Shown here: one piece after another, positions 1,501-15,197 of the stretch
Position numbering within the stretch: position 1 is the first letter of the stretch
Layout: each line of letters begins with the position of its first letter
DNA from: Candidatus Dadabacteria bacterium
Lineage (GTDB): Bacteria; Desulfobacterota_D; UBA1144; Nemesobacterales; JADFKM01
NCBI GenBank assembly: GCA_022564935.1
Contig: JADFKM010000034.1
Location: forward strand, 1-22,246
Length of the DNA: 22,246 nucleotides
Direction: 5' to 3'
The notes under the pieces: model-generated
Databases searched by the model: none
Told to the model about the DNA's origin: nothing
Seen by the model: the letters and a program-made list of their open reading frames with translations, nothing else
Translations under genes and position numbers: made by a program

Positions 1501-3549
1501 ATGAGCATGTATATAGCCGCTTTTGGAGGCCCAATCCTCGGATTGGCGGGCCTTGTGTACGCCTTTTACGTCTATAGAGAAGTCGTTTCTCTTCCGGAAG
1601 GTACCGAGAAAATGAGAGAAATCGCAGGACACATACACAGAGGAGCCATGGTATTCCTCAAACGTGAATACAGAATAATTTTTGTTTTCGTCCTTATCGT
1701 GTTCGCACTGCTTGCAATTTTCATAAACCTCCCGACGGCAATAGCCTACATCGGCGGCGCGCTGTGCTCAGGAATGGCGGGGTTTTGGGGTATGAACGCA
1801 GCCACCAAGGCCAATGTGCGCACCGCGCAGGCGGCCGCCACTGAGGGACAGGGAAGCGCGCTCGTGGTTGCCTTCAAAGGCGGGAGCGTAATGGGCCTTT
1901 CCGTCGCGAGCCTGGGCCTTCTGGGTCTGTCTGTAGCCTTCGCCCTGGGCATTGGATTGGAGGCCACACCCACAGAGCCCGCGGCTCTGAGCGCATTCGT
2001 TAAACAGTTTGCCGGAATCATAGGCGGGTTCGCGATGGGAGCGAGCTCCGTGGCGCTTTTTGCCAGGATAGGAGGAGGCATATTCACGAAGGCCGCAGAC
2101 GTGGGGGCCGACCTTGTGGGTAAAGTGGAAGCCGGCATCCCGGAGGACGACCCGAGAAACCCTGCCACAATAGCCGACAACGTGGGGGACAACGTGGGGG
2201 ACGTGGCGGGGATGGGCGCCGACCTTTTCGAGTCGTATGTGGGCTCGGTGGTGGCGACCATAGTCATAGCCGCCTCCATGGAGGAAAAACAGATTACGCT
2301 TATGGCACTGCCTATCGTGCTGATAATGCTTGGCACCATCGCATCGATTATCGGAGGGAAATGCGTGGACTGGTTCAAGCACCTTGAGCCTCAGGTCGTA
2401 CTCAGGCGCGCCACACTCTACTCAGGAGCCATATATGTGGCAATCTCTCTTCTGTTCATTCTAGTCATGTCACTGGGGGACAAAATCAGGCCGATGATGG
2501 CCTTCGGAATTTGGGGGGCTTCTGTGATGGGACTTCTCACCGGGGTTCTAATCGGAAGGGTCACCGAGTACTACACCTCGGGCTCTCCCATACGAAAGAT
2601 CGCCAAAGCCTCCGAAACGGGCGTCGGAACTAACATCATTTCGGGTCTTTCGGTGGGAATGATGAGCACGGCGCTGCCGGTGGTGTTTATCGTTTTCGCT
2701 ATAATTATTTCATACAAATTTGCCGGGCTCTACGGGATAGGCATCGCGGCGGTAAGCATGCTCGCCACCATAGGTATTACCATGTCGGTGGACGCCTACG
2801 GCCCCGTGGCCGACAACGCCGGGGGCATTACCGAGATGAGTGGGCTTGGCCCCGACGTAAGAAAGATCACCGACAAGCTTGACTCCCTGGGCAACACCAC
2901 CGCGGCGATAGGGAAAGGATTCGCCATAGGCTCCGCCGCCTTGACCGCACTTGCTCTGTTTGCCGCATATACAAACGCCGTGGGGCTCGAGAGTATAAAC
3001 CTCACCAACAGCAACGTCATAGCCGGCTTGCTGCTCGGAGGCACTGTGCCGTTCATCATAGCTGCCCTCACCATGGGCTCGGTCGGTAAAACGGCAGCGC
3101 AAATGGTCGAAGAAGTGAGGCGTCAGTTCAGGGAGATACCCGGCATTCTGGAAGGGGAAGGCAAGCCCGACTACGAAAAGTGCGTCAGCATATCGACCGA
3201 CTCTTCCCTGAAAGAGATGATAATCCCCGGTGTCACAGCCGTCGTCTCCCCACTAGCTGTGGGATTCATCGGGGGGCCTGAAGCCCTAGGAGGCTTCCTC
3301 GCCGGGGCGTTAGTCACCGGAGTCATGCTGGCGCTCATGATGGCCAACTCGGGCGGTGCCTGGGACAATGCCAAAAAATACATCGAGGAGGGAAACCTAG
3401 GTGGTAAGGGCTCGGACGCCCACAAGGCTGCGGTTGTGGGTGACACCGTGGGAGACCCTTTCAAAGACACTTCGGGTCCCGCGATGAACATACTCATCAA
3501 GCTCATGTCCATTGTGTCTCTGGTGGTAGCTCCGCTGCTCATCCTCTGA
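1501..3549 (+). CDS. hppA: Membrane-bound ion-pumping pyrophosphatase, predicted K+-dependent
   Basis: This 682-residue polytopic protein of about 16 membrane segments hydrolyses cytoplasmic PPi and pumps Na+ and/or H+ outward. The substrate-binding loop [20 protein letters not shown] is present, followed by the Asp series [20 protein letters not shown] (D226, D230, D234, D241, E244 here). A second acidic cluster lies near the C-terminus ([14 protein letters not shown]). In GNTTAAIG the residue that sets K+ dependence is Ala468, with Gly471 after it; K+-independent enzymes have Lys at the first site. E244 sits at the ion-gate position of Na+-pumping enzymes such as that of Thermotoga (E246), whereas plant H+-PPases carry this Glu further along the helix. 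Pump specificity is therefore inferred, not shown. AGGAGG-like bases lie just before the ATG, overlapping the end of pth. Confidence 0.96.
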
Positions 3550-3629: not shown

Positions 3630-3658
3630 GTAACAAATTCCAATTATTGAGGTATAAT
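3630..3658 (+). promoter_or_regulatory. Sigma-70-type promoter for the S6-S18/L9 operon
   Basis: GTAACA at 3630-3635 (4 of 6 matches to TTGACA), a 17-base spacer and a perfect TATAAT at 3653-3658. It is followed by about 60 bases of leader before the ATG at 3725. It would let rpsF-rpsR-rplI be expressed separately from the upstream hppA transcript. The call rests on consensus match and position only. Confidence 0.6.
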
Positions 3659-3665
3659 CACTCCT

Positions 3666-3716
3666 GTTGCTCTGAGCCTCCACACTCTCAGGGTCGTTAA
3701 GTCCGAAACGGAGGAA
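3666..3716 (+). promoter_or_regulatory. Structured leader of rpsF: candidate S6:S18 autoregulatory element
   Basis: Between the predicted start of transcription and the S6 start codon are two hairpins. CTGAG (3672-3676) pairs with CTCAG (3687-3691). TCCG (3702-3705) pairs with CGGA (3709-3712) around an AAA loop, and this second stem overlaps the Shine-Dalgarno GGAGGA (3710-3715). Many bacteria control rpsF through a leader that binds the S6:S18 complex at a conserved CCG element resembling its 16S rRNA site. A CCGAAA is present here, but I cannot confirm that the fold matches the known motif. Confidence 0.45.
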
Positions 3717-3724
3717 ATGAATTT

Positions 3725-4336
3725 ATGGTTGAGCCCAAATACTACGAAACGCTCTACGTTACACGCCCGGATATAGGCGAAGATGAGTTGAATAAGACCC
3801 GGGACAAGCTAAAGGCCGCGATCGACAAATGTGAAGGGGAGATAGTTAAATCGAAGAAGTGGGCTGAAAGGAAGCTCTCCTATTCGATAGACAACTACTC
3901 TGAGGGCGTTTACTACATCATGATTTACAAAGCCCTTCCCGGCGTGGTCGGCGAAATGGAGAAGGTACTCACGGGGCCCATGGCCGACGTGCTCAGGTTC
4001 ATCACGGTTGCCATCGACCAAGAGAGGGCGCTCAGCAGCACTGAGCAGACGCCGCCCGAAGAGGTGATTGGAGGTGCGCCACAGCCTAAAAAGAAGAAAA
4101 AGAAAAACCTCATAGCAAAGAAGAAGTACGGCAGGTTCCAGCTGGACAAACTGAAGCCATCGGACCTGGATTACAAAAACGTCGACCTTCTGTCCAAATT
4201 CATCACTGAGAGAAAGAAAATAGTTCCGAAACGCACCTCCGGACTCAGCGCACACGGACAGAGGCTTCTTGCAAGAGCTATAAAGAGGGCGCGCAACGTT
4301 TCGCTTCTGCCATATACGGTGCTCCACGGCAGATAA
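3725..4336 (+). CDS. rpsF-rpsR: In-frame fusion of 30S ribosomal proteins S6 and S18
   Basis: One uninterrupted 203-codon frame encodes both small-subunit proteins. Residues 1 to about 103 are a complete S6 ([51 protein letters not shown]). A 20-residue Pro/Glu/Gly linker follows (about 104-124, [15 protein letters not shown]), then residues 125-203 are a complete S18 (basic Lys tract, [49 protein letters not shown]). S6 and S18 normally come from separate genes and bind 16S rRNA as a heterodimer, so a covalent pair is structurally plausible. The cysteines of zinc-type S18 (YCRFC) are replaced (YGRFQ, residues 135-139). No stop or well-spaced internal Shine-Dalgarno/start pair separates the domains; a GTG in the linker has its purines too close. 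The S6 ATG has GGAGGA about nine bases upstream. A lost base near the junction could mimic a fusion. Confidence 0.9.
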
Positions 4337-4388: not shown

Positions 4389-4841
4389 ATGAAAGTGATT
4401 CTAACAGACGACGTCGAGTTTCTGGGGATCAAGGGAGAGATAAAAGAGGTAAAAGGGGGCTATGCCCGCAACTACCTTTTCCCCAAGCAGCTGGCAATCG
4501 AAGCCAACGATGGGAATATGAAGGTCTGGGAAGACCTGCACAGACGGATAATTAAAAAAGAGGCTAAAGTCGCCGATGACACACGAGTCCTGGCGGCCGA
4601 GCTCGAGGCCCTCACCATCACAATCAGCGCCAAGGTTGGCGAAGATAAAAAGCTGTTCGGCTCGGTTACATCTCAGAACATAGCGGATATGCTCGAGGAA
4701 AAGGGCTACAAAATATCGAGAAAGGATATAGATATCGATACGGGTATAAAATCTCTAGGCACCTATAACGTCTCCGTTAAGCTTCACTCCAAAGTGGCAT
4801 CGACCATTAAGGTCGAAGTGGTAGAGGAAGAAGAAGCTTAA
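4389..4841 (+). CDS. rplI: 50S ribosomal protein L9
   Basis: This 150-residue protein is of normal L9 length. The N-terminal rRNA-binding domain (1-50) reads MKVILTDDVEFLGIKGE and contains the GYARNYLFPKQLAI signature. A long connecting helix (about 45-80) leads to the C-terminal domain (about 83-146, with KKLFGSVTSQNIADML and IKSLGTYNVSVKLH). L9 binds domain V of 23S rRNA near the L1 stalk and supports translational fidelity. The ATG is preceded by GGGAGGG at correct spacing. It lies 52 bases after the S6-S18 frame and is the last gene of the plus-strand operon. Confidence 0.97.
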   Translation: MKVILTDDVEFLGIKGEIKEVKGGYARNYLFPKQLAIEANDGNMKVWEDLHRRIIKKEAKVADDTRVLAAELEALTITISAKVGEDKKLFGSVTSQNIADMLEEKGYKISRKDIDIDTGIKSLGTYNVSVKLHSKVASTIKVEVVEEEEA

Positions 4842-8317: not shown

Positions 8318-9718
8318 TCACATCCAGCCCTTGAACCATATTCTCCACAAAAACTGTTTCTCGCTCAGGGGAAAACCGTAAGTAAGCGGGGCAAAAAATA
8401 TAAATCCCAGATAAAACAACGCCACAAGCGCCACGAAAAGGGCCGTCCTGTACTTCCTGTAGTCATCCAGGGCGTCGGAGAAGTACATGCCCATTATCAC
8501 AATCGAAAAAATGAGGGCCGGAAAGTAGTGATACTGAAACATCACTCTTTCAATGTTGTAAAAAGGGAGCACATTCATTACCCATCCGAAATATAGGATC
8601 CACTTCGTCTCAGCCCGGGACGGCCACCACAGGAAAAGCCCCGCGGCCGTCATACCTAGGGCGAGCCACCACACCATGGGGTTTCCCGTGAGATAAACCC
8701 TGGACTGCCCGTCGCTGGACTGCGGGTCGTTCCAATAATACACACTGCGGGCCATGACGGGCCAGGTGTAGAACGGGCTTGCATACGGGTGCTTCTTTCC
8801 CAAAGAGACGTTGGAAGTAAACATGGTCTTGTTAAGCTCCTGGAATTTAGCCGCGAAGCCAAGGGGCTCTATATTCGGGTCGTGTTCCGTATTGGAGCCA
8901 ACAAGGGTTTTGTTAAAACGCTCGGACATGAAAGCATTGCCGGGGCCGCTCTTATCAAGCAAATAGAAATGAACGGTAAACACAGAGAAGTTTATAAGTA
9001 TTGGTAGGACAACAAGAGCCAGGGCGCTCGAAACAACCTCACGCATACGGTATTTGCCCTGCGTCAAATCCCACAGGGCCACCGCAAGCCCGAGGCCCAA
9101 AAACGAAAGTCCCGTCCACTTCACAGAAAACGCACAGCCCAGAAACACTCCGGCTCCGATAAGATAAACCGTTCTTCGTGGATAGTTACGGTAGAAAAAA
9201 AACAGCGCAAGACCCCCAAACCCGAAAAACAAAAAAGCCGAATCGAGAAGGATGAAATGGGATTGAACCAGGAGCGCGTTCTCAAGCGCAACGGCCAGCC
9301 CGGCAAGCATTGCCGCCATTCGAGAGCCCTTCAAAGAAAGCACAAAAAGGTAAACGCACGGCACCAGCATCGCACCGAAGAGATTAGGCACCACCCTGAG
9401 CGCAATGTAAGCGCCGTCGGGATAAGGCTCGCCTATGGCTTCGAAGCCAAAGCCGGGCTCAAACCCTCCGATATACCCTGCAAGGGCTATGAGCAGCTTG
9501 CCGAGCGGGGGGTGGATATCGAAGAAATACTCTCCCGTAAAGTAGGCGTTTATGAATTTGCCGAAATGCGTCTCATCGAAGACCACTTCGCGGGGATGCC
9601 AGATGAAAGCAAACCGGCTCACGAGTCCGAGCACAAGCAGGACTAATGGGAGAGCATATTTGCTTCTCGCTAATCGGTACATTGCAAATCGAGGATTTGT
9701 GATTTTGTGGATTCTCAC
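8318..9718 (-). CDS. GT39 protein O-mannosyltransferase-like integral membrane enzyme
   Basis: This 466-residue multi-spanning protein has the PMT hallmarks: an early extracytoplasmic acidic motif FDETHF (D48, E49) and DIHPPLGKLLIAL (67-79), followed by many hydrophobic helices. The C-terminal third holds the four-helix PMT-type region (WPVMARSVYYWND, YLTGNPMVWW, FQYHYFPALIF). PMTs transfer mannose from a polyprenyl phosphate to Ser/Thr of exported proteins. The bacterial members known best are actinobacterial. The start codon at 9716-9718 is GTG. An ATG at 9682 would drop 12 residues, and neither has a strong Shine-Dalgarno. The gene begins 13 bases after the end of the broken GT2 upstream and shares its strand, so they were probably one operon. 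The sugar and acceptors are inferred. Confidence 0.88.
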   Translation of the reverse strand: MRIHKITNPRFAMYRLARSKYALPLVLLVLGLVSRFAFIWHPREVVFDETHFGKFINAYFTGEYFFDIHPPLGKLLIALAGYIGGFEPGFGFEAIGEPYPDGAYIALRVVPNLFGAMLVPCVYLFVLSLKGSRMAAMLAGLAVALENALLVQSHFILLDSAFLFFGFGGLALFFFYRNYPRRTVYLIGAGVFLGCAFSVKWTGLSFLGLGLAVALWDLTQGKYRMREVVSSALALVVLPILINFSVFTVHFYLLDKSGPGNAFMSERFNKTLVGSNTEHDPNIEPLGFAAKFQELNKTMFTSNVSLGKKHPYASPFYTWPVMARSVYYWNDPQSSDGQSRVYLTGNPMVWWLALGMTAAGLFLWWPSRAETKWILYFGWVMNVLPFYNIERVMFQYHYFPALIFSIVIMGMYFSDALDDYRKYRTALFVALVALFYLGFIFFAPLTYGFPLSEKQFLWRIWFKGWM

Positions 9719-9731
9719 TATCCGTTAAAAA

Positions 9732-10435
9732 CTACTCACTCCGTTTAAAAAGCAAAACAAAAAGCTCCTTAACCGCCTTTAGAATCACCTTAACGCTGCC
9801 TCCGATCTGAGCTCCGAATCTGCGGGGCAAATGCCTCACGGGAACCTCCCCTATGGAACAACCCCCGCGCTTTAGCTTCCAAAGCAGCTGCGCGCTTGAG
9901 GAGCGCTCCATCCGAGCGCAGGGGGCTTCACCGATGTATATGCAGCTCTCGGAAGCAGCTTGAAGGCGCAGTCGACGTCCCTTACATCAAGACCCATACT
10001 GAGCATCAAAACTATGCGGTAACACCAGGCGTAAACGGACCGAATCAAGGGGTCTGCTCTCCTGCTTCGATAACCGATGACCACATCGAATCTGCCGGTG
10101 TGCTTAAGGAGTTTTCAATGTCTCGGATATCGAACTGGCCGTTCGCTGTCAATTAAAAATATGTAGTCCTTGCCAGCTGCTTCAAAACCGCTCTTCAGGG
10201 CCGAGCCGTAGCCTCGATTGAGTCTGTGACTTACAAGCCTTACTTTAGGGTTGACCTCCGCTATACGATTGACGAGGGCGCCGGTTCTGTCCGTGGAGCC
10301 GTCATCTACCACTATGATCTCGTAATCGGGGAGCTTTCCACCCGCGAATTCAATGCAGCCCTTTACCGTATCTGCTATATTTCCCCGCTCGTTATAGGCA
10401 GGAAGCACTACTGAGATAGACTGGCTTGAATTCAT
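9732..10435 (-). pseudogene. Second family 2 glycosyltransferase, interrupted by four single-base indels
   Basis: The protein starts MNSSQSISVVLPAYNERGNI and keeps VVDDGSTDRT, SHRLNRGYGSALKSGF and YIFLIDSD. It then needs frame changes to continue: an extra base near 10139-10147, a lost A near 10112-10115, an extra C in the C-run (G-run on plus) at 9921-9925, and an extra base near 9890-9893. With these corrected the protein is about 233 residues, with GQFDIRDIEKLL, DVVIGYRSRRADPLIRSVYA, a DCAFKLLPR segment, the SDGALL acceptor motif, GEVPVRH, and a basic amphipathic tail ending at the TAG 9732-9734. The total length (704 bases) agrees with these net changes. All key motifs survive, so either the gene died recently or the sequence contains errors. 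If functional it would be another polyprenyl-phosphate sugar synthase feeding the adjacent PMT-like enzyme. Confidence 0.85.
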
Positions 10436-13836: not shown

Positions 13837-15197
13837 GTGGGCGGCAAGTTGAAAAATTTTAACGTTCTTTCGGTCGACGACCACACCAGCATATTGATAG
13901 CACTCCGTGCCGTCCTAGAAGATTCGGGGTACGAAGTGTTGACGGCGTCTTCCGGGGAAGAAGTTAATCTGGCTTCCACAGTCCCTAGTATGCTCACAGC
14001 GCTCCTAGACCTCGCGATGCCGAAATGGGGACGGGTTCACCCTCATCAGCAAGCTGAAGGAGGCTCACCCGGAAACGGATCTTATCATAATGACGGGACA
14101 GGGCACCATTCCCACCGCCGTTGAAGCTATAAAACGGGGGGCGTCCGATTTCATTCCCAAGCCTTTCGACAAAGACGTGCTGCTCAAGAAGCTGGAGGCC
14201 ATAAAAACCCGTGCCTACCTGGAGAACAGAGTCACGAATTTACGGGAATTGGTTTCCGACAAGTACGGGTTTGAAAACATCATAAGCTCCTCTCAGGCAA
14301 TGATGGACGTGTTCGAAGTGGCTTCGGCAGCTGTAAGCAGCGACGCCCCGGCGCTGATAGTAGGCGAAACCGGCACCGGCAAGGAGCTGATCGCAAAGGC
14401 GATACACGTCAAAAGCAAACGAGGGAACGAGCCTTTTATAGGCGTAAACTGCGAGGCAATCCCCAAAGAGCTCCTGGAATCGGAGCTGTTCGGGTACAAA
14501 AAGGGCTCGTTTACGGGTGCGCTAAAAGATCACGAAGGACTTTTCATGGCCGCCGATATAAGGAACGATTTTTCTCGACGAGATCGGTGAGATGCCCAAG
14601 GAATTCCAGGTTCGACTGCTTAGGGCGCTGCAGGAGAGAAAAGTAAGACCAATAGGTAGCGCGACCGAGCTACCGGTAGATATACGAATCATCTCAGCCA
14701 CCAACAGAACCCTCGATGAGCTTAAAAACACGTATTTAAGGGAAGACATGTTCTTCCATCTGGCAGTGATTTTGATCGACCTCCCCCCCTTGAGAAAGAG
14801 AAGAGAGGACATACCCCTCCTTGTCGAGCATTTCATACGCGCCTTTAACAATGCGTATTCGAAAAACATAATGGGGATTACGGAAAGCGGCCTTATAACT
14901 CTGTATCGCTACGGTTTCCCGGGGAATATAAGGGAGCTTGAAAATTTGATCGAACGTATTATCGCCGTAATGCCTCCTAATAGAACCGAAATCACGGAAA
15001 AAGACATAAAAAGCCATCTCCTGCTCTCCGTAGCTAAAGCCCAGGAGACAAGCCTTTCCCTCGTGGAGCTTGAAAGGGTGGCGATAGAGCAGGCCATCAG
15101 GGAATGCAAGGGGAATAAATCAAAAGCGGCAAAGGTGCTCGGCATCTCGAGAGACACTTTTTATAAAAAGACCAAACTGTTCGAAATCGAAGCCTAG
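13837..15197 (+). pseudogene. NtrC-family sigma-54-dependent response regulator, interrupted by two frameshifts
   Basis: Three domains can be followed across two one-base gains. The receiver (FNVLSVDDHTSILIALRAVLEDSGYEVLTA, phospho-acceptor Asp in LLDLAMPK) shifts frame near 14022-14030 and continues from MTGQGTIPTAVEAIKRGA. The AAA+ domain has Walker A GETGTGKE, the sigma-54 contact loop GSFTGA (usually GAFTGA) and a Walker B FLDEIGE, which is split from the preceding part by a shift near 14556-14562. It continues through RIISATNR, LPPLRKRREDIPLL and FPGNIRELENLIERI. A Fis-type HTH ends the protein (ECKGNKSKAAKVLGISRDTFYKK). With both changes corrected the length is 452 residues. The start is a GTG at 13837 or a TTG at 13849. 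The function would be to activate sigma-54 promoters; as written it gives no intact protein. Confidence 0.88.

Follow-up and report, generated by a model that had tools for sequence, protein, structure and literature searches.

A probable in-frame fusion of the genes for ribosomal proteins S6 and S18 in a Candidatus Dadabacteria genome

The 22,246-nucleotide stretch of DNA analysed here (the window) contains an open frame that runs from a complete ribosomal protein S6 (bS6) into a complete ribosomal protein S18 (bS18). We consider rpsF and rpsR to be genuinely fused in frame here, with a probability of roughly three in four; the sequence comes from one assembly. Relatives in which the two genes are separate indicate how the fusion would have arisen, which was apparently by loss of the stop codon between rpsF and rpsR. 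Translation of the gene most likely yields a single S6-S18 protein.

The fusion gene and its joining segment

The window is contig C30 of a metagenome-type assembly of 1.99 Mb (104 contigs, 88.6% complete, 0.9% contamination). The fusion gene, its parts and its neighbours are located as follows.

1501-3549: hppA, intact, upstream of the fusion gene
3725-4336, forward strand: rpsF-rpsR fusion gene, ATG to TAA, 203 codons plus TAA, defined by the open reading frame and profile matches
3725-4009, forward strand: S6 (bS6) part, residues 1-95, defined by Pfam and NCBIfam and by comparison of the S6 region of the AlphaFold model with solved S6 chains
4010-4114, forward strand: joining segment, residues 96-130, between the S6 and S18 profile boundaries, of low model confidence
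4115-4333, forward strand: S18 (bS18) part, residues 131-203, defined by Pfam, NCBIfam and alignment
4389-4841, forward strand: next gene of the operon, intact, rplI (L9)

Read with genetic code table 11, the frame at 3725-4336 encodes 203 amino acids and has zero internal stops. Both parts belong to their expected families. The S6 part is matched by the bS6 profiles PF01250 (residues 7-95, E 2.7e-19, 69.6 bits against a cut-off of 27, profile positions 2-89 of 90) and TIGR00166 of NCBIfam (residues 6-96, 44.3 bits against 42.9), and the S18 part by the bS18 profiles PF01084 (residues 147-195, E 3.1e-20, 72.5 bits against 21, profile positions 4-52 of 52) and TIGR00165 of NCBIfam (residues 131-198, 78 bits against 38.75). 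As assembled, GGAGGTGCGCCACAGCCTAAA is in frame with both domains. The original prediction of an open frame from a full S6 into a full S18 without a stop is thus borne out by the frame and by both profile collections, and the gene has the make-up of a natural S6-S18 fusion, namely both domains in one frame with neither a stop nor a usable internal start. No second copy of S6 or S18 was detected by a genome-wide search of the 88.6% complete assembly. The gene at 4389-4841 was taken to be rplI by recognition of its sequence, and the presence of rplI as a neighbour also at locus L020, in another family of the class, supports this identification.

The joining segment was originally put at 20 residues, a length that the domain boundaries revise to about 35 (residues 96-130). 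It begins with an acidic S6-like tail (...EEVIGG), which is followed by a Lys-rich S18-like head, and the GC contents of its codon positions (0.56/0.41/0.62) are coding-like. The other two frames are closed by TGA at 4042, TGA at 4065, TAA at 4087 and TAG at 4113. A run of 35 codons is free of stops by chance with a probability of (61/64)^35, or ~0.19, so that such a run is not rare alone; the absence of a stop is significant here because relatives with the same frame and spacing always carry one. The sole in-frame ATG, GTG or TTG of the segment is GTG 4064, for which pairing with a generic anti-Shine-Dalgarno sequence amounts to -2.1 kcal/mol versus -11.8 for rpsF and -11.7 for rplI. The expected lack of a well-placed internal start was therefore confirmed.

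Comparison with relatives and origin of the open frame

The comparison set had 60 rows, comprising 42 from the same order, 14 from the same class and 4 others including the row of the query genome, which is the sole member of its genus and family in the set. Matches were obtained in 58 of the 60, and the open S6-S18 frame was present only in the query. The best matches, which are 49-55% identical, come from one sister family (genomes G013, G022, G019, G016 and G003; loci L004-L008), and at these five of the seven nearest relatives rpsF and rpsR lie in the same frame. The two genes are in different frames at L009 and L010 of the same sister family, indicating that the same-frame layout is common there and not fixed. 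Outside the sister family, the small genomes of a different family of the class (L013, L020 and others) share this layout, likewise with a stop.

The original prediction described rpsF and rpsR as generally separate and often having ssb or priB between them. The first part applies to the relatives, but at the junctions read in the sister family nothing lies between the two genes. It had also regarded separate genes in all close relatives as grounds against a fusion; this is literally what was found, but in relatives that are only ~50% identical, belong to other families and reveal how the fusion came about.

The junctions at L004-L008 follow the pattern GG(A/G)GG-NNN-TAA-NNN-ATG in a single frame, in which the S6-terminal Gly-Gly codons also serve as the rpsR Shine-Dalgarno sequence (GGAGG at L004, L005, L006 and L008, and GGGGG at L007). 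The junction reads GGA GGC ATA TAA GCA ATG at L004 and GGA GGA ATC TAA ATT ATG at L008. The corresponding site of the window was located by a gapless alignment to these loci.

4070-4087, forward strand: fossil junction, GGAGGT-GCG-CCA-CAG-CCT

In this alignment, CCA takes the place of TAA and CCT that of ATG. L004, L008 and the window do not differ in the distance from the junction to the conserved Lys-Lys-x-x-(K/R)-Phe sequence of S18. Frame, spacing and Shine-Dalgarno sequence have thus been kept and the length is unchanged, while TAA and ATG are gone. Furthermore, the acidic Gly-Gly ends of S6 at L005 (EEGGS*) and L008 (SEGGI*) match EEVIGG of the window in frame 0, which supports the continuity of the frame up to the junction. 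In the relatives, the Shine-Dalgarno sequence of S18 lies within the last S6 codons, ahead of TAA and of an in-frame ATG three bases further on; the lineage of the window has a sense codon at the stop position and has lost the ATG, with no change in length.

The window and L004-L008 share the same proteins, gene order, neighbouring leader, frame and junction spacing. The five loci differ from the window in having separate genes with TAA and ATG kept between them, and in an S18 with CxxC zinc ligands. The zinc-ribbon cysteines carried by S18 of these relatives are lacking in the S18 part of the fusion, which is the only S18 of the genome: in the alignment, YGRFQ stands in place of CKFC and SAHG in place of CAYH, making this S18 a C- form and not the zinc-binding C+ form with its CxxC motif. 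A short insertion of two to three residues within 4115-4333 adjoins the former zinc site.

These comparisons bear on the reading of the open frame as an assembly artefact, in which one false base at ~4019-4063 would have joined an S6 gene ending at TGA 4065-4067 to an S18 gene starting at GTG 4064. The sequence does contain a GTGA overlap in the required frames, and one-base shifts occur in two other genes of the same contig (13837-15197 and 9718-10435). However, since both genes are in the same frame in relatives and the Gly-Gly end of S6 is in frame 0 in the window too, this reading would call for two events, a genuine frameshift and a false base by which the ancestral frame happened to be restored exactly. 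It would also place the start of S18 at a GTG with the weak pairing given above, and the neighbouring hppA and rplI are intact. We therefore regard an artefact as extremely unlikely. The concern that other genes of the window have one-base indels is correct for those two genes, but is weakened as regards the fusion: contig indels explain it poorly because no indel is needed relative to the same-frame relatives. A genuine fusion, as originally favoured, is supported as the best reading by the same frame and the same junction length in relatives.

Two further candidates were dismissed. An error of multiple substitutions that made sense codons of both TAA and ATG is not plausible, and an unusual genetic code was dropped because table 11 suffices to read through the frame and the release-factor-family genes that are present have no stops within them.

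The two shifted genes have features of their own. The gene at 13837-15197 encodes a sigma-54-type response regulator with two one-base shifts (near 14025 and 14560), after which coding sense goes on in the new frame; it represents either a pseudogene or an assembly error. On the minus strand, the glycosyltransferase gene at 9718-10435 contains approximately three one-base shifts, one pair of which cancel each other out over a stretch of a few tens of bases, and this looks more like sequence error than decay. The remaining contig genes that were inspected appear intact.

Within the coding sequence between the two domains, a perfect Shine-Dalgarno-like GGAGGTG at 4070-4076 is followed by no start codon; translation might be slowed there, between S6 and S18. 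Anti-Shine-Dalgarno pairing of this relic before the former ATG position amounts to -15.3 kcal/mol. Its strength, together with the in-frame position of GTG 4064, could suggest that a separate S18 is made from this GTG or another weak start in addition to the full fusion. The Shine-Dalgarno-like sequence lies downstream of GTG 4064, however, and the codons after it (GCG CCA CAG CCT AAA AAG) provide no usable frame-0 start, making two products very unlikely.

The predicted protein and its leader RNA

In an AlphaFold2 model based on a 22-row alignment (mean pLDDT 78.6, pTM 0.72), both domains of the fusion protein form. Confidence is high for the S6 fold, moderate for the S18 core and low for the joining segment, with the lowest values at residues 108-117. 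The S6 part matches solved S6 chains with a TMt of about 0.8-0.9, and S6 chains were the only ones among the matches listed. The model was used for domain formation only, and binding geometry on the ribosome is outside its reach. The ~35-residue joining segment could bridge a distance well beyond the dimensions of the two domains, and would thus be long enough for S6 to pair with S18 within one chain.

Ribosomes that enter at the rpsF start would make a single chain of about 23 kDa, in which the S6 and S18 domains, connected by a flexible linker, would fold and associate with one another. The tethered S6-S18 would then join the 30S platform as one unit, the two-step formation of a heterodimer being replaced by an intramolecular one and the ratio being fixed at 1:1. 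Alternatively, the fusion may be a precursor, and cleavage within its Lys-rich linker would leave separate S6 and S18 in the mature ribosome. Given its length, its Lys-rich composition and its low model confidence, the joining segment is probably exposed, and the ubiquitin-ribosomal protein fusions of eukaryotes (eS31 and eL40) are cut by proteases in a like manner. These fusions resemble that of the window in that a ribosomal protein is made within a fusion, but their partner, ubiquitin, is not ribosomal and is removed. A processing signal or dedicated protease for the S6-S18 protein was not identified, and we regard cleavage as unlikely.

The region upstream of the fusion gene contains a structured leader and a promoter-like site.

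3630-3658, forward strand: promoter-like site GTAACA-17-TATAAT just upstream of the leader, 10 of 12 matches
3663-3712, forward strand: rpsF leader, defined by a common fold in 18 sequences of the order and class

Helix P1 of the leader is formed by 3663-3668 and 3707-3712 (CCTGTT/AACGGA) and helix P2 by 3669-3676 and 3687-3694 (GCTCTGAG/CTCAGGGT), and the internal loop at 3695-3706 contains a conserved CC at 3703-3704. The 3' side of P1 overlaps the Shine-Dalgarno sequence GGAGG at 3710-3714. The leader therefore possesses the hallmarks of an rpsF leader, namely two helices, a Shine-Dalgarno sequence within a stem and a conserved CC in a loop. The same two-helix element is formed by the ~60 bases that precede rpsF in 18 genomes of the class, with a loop of 10-12 bases and CC in all 18 loops. 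Standard pairs occupy 177 of the 180 P1/P2 cells in the 18 sequences, a count biased towards the structure by manual placement of the pairs. Two-sided changes that preserve pairing (for example, T-A to C-G and C-G to A-T) indicate covariation. This covarying leader is present upstream of rpsF in the window and at L004-L032, class-wide, and had no Rfam match even at E 10; Rfam 15 may, however, lack an rpsF-leader family. The promoter-like site is weak on its own, approximately 0.9 such sites being expected in the region by chance.

The known rpsF leader has its Shine-Dalgarno sequence within the structure, and its CC pair mimics C719-C720 of 16S rRNA, which are contacted by Lys60 and Arg63 of S18 (PMC4647458). 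The S18 part of the fusion retains AIKRAR, whose Lys and Arg are the residues in contact with the CC of the rRNA and the leader (alignment; PMC4647458). The leader of the window is therefore similar to that of Escherichia coli and Bacillus subtilis (Babina et al. 2015, PMC4647458) in its SD-bearing stem and CC loop, and the Lys and Arg of S18 that read the CC are also common to both. In contrast, the effector of the E. coli/B. subtilis system is a two-protein complex encoded by separate genes, with priB between rpsF and rpsR in E. coli (PMC4647458), whereas the window, with its fused genes, would use one tethered chain. Neither S6 nor S18 brings about repression by itself (PMC4647458). Because the leader keeps an S6:S18-type fold and the CC and covaries, feedback control probably persists in the fused lineage. 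The tethered S6-S18 would bind the leader as the heterodimer does elsewhere, and would thereby repress its own mRNA. A change of autoregulation by the fusion, which had been raised as a possibility, is not indicated, the S6:S18-type leader being retained.

Rarity and implications of the fusion

Six phylum-level samples (297, 199, 101, 195, 17 and 98 genomes) were searched with a profile in which S6 and S18 are joined. They yielded 83, 54, 18, 31, 1 and 18 single-frame matches spanning both domains, respectively, all of which contain at least one internal stop. With 14 further same-frame pairs with a stop in the class of the window itself, about 219 such pairs compare with one without a stop, that of the window. 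The fused arrangement was shared by none of the ~970 other genomes; the six samples come from outside several large phyla, for example Bacteroidota, Actinomycetota and most Bacillota. Thus, the suggested search of related genomes for a fused protein yielded same-frame separate pairs and no second fusion. In a GTDB-based scan of contigs (80 loci), the 8 loci that span both domains and were read all had a stop or different frames. Viral contigs gave no fused S6-S18 match, and the PDB matches listed included no sequence covering both domains. No description of an S6-S18 or rpsF-rpsR fusion was found in open-licence full texts, and the use of 'rpsF-rpsR' examined there refers to a dicistronic mRNA.

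Few genes are as conserved as those for ribosomal proteins. S6 and S18 serve as a standard case of two proteins that form a heterodimer before they bind the 30S subunit, and of a protein complex that regulates its own synthesis. Fusions of two ribosomal proteins seem to be very rare, with none among the ~219 comparable pairs or in the open literature searched. The S6-S18 fusion, which rests on one assembly, is very unusual for these genes. It also shows a route by which such a fusion can arise, as adjoining genes in the same frame need only the loss of a stop. It is fairly probable that there is a lineage whose 30S subunits carry covalently linked S6-S18 and in which the fusion acts as a single-chain effector of its own leader RNA. 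If true, a natural single-chain S6-S18 would provide a ready-made test of the importance of separate synthesis for assembly order, stoichiometry and feedback.
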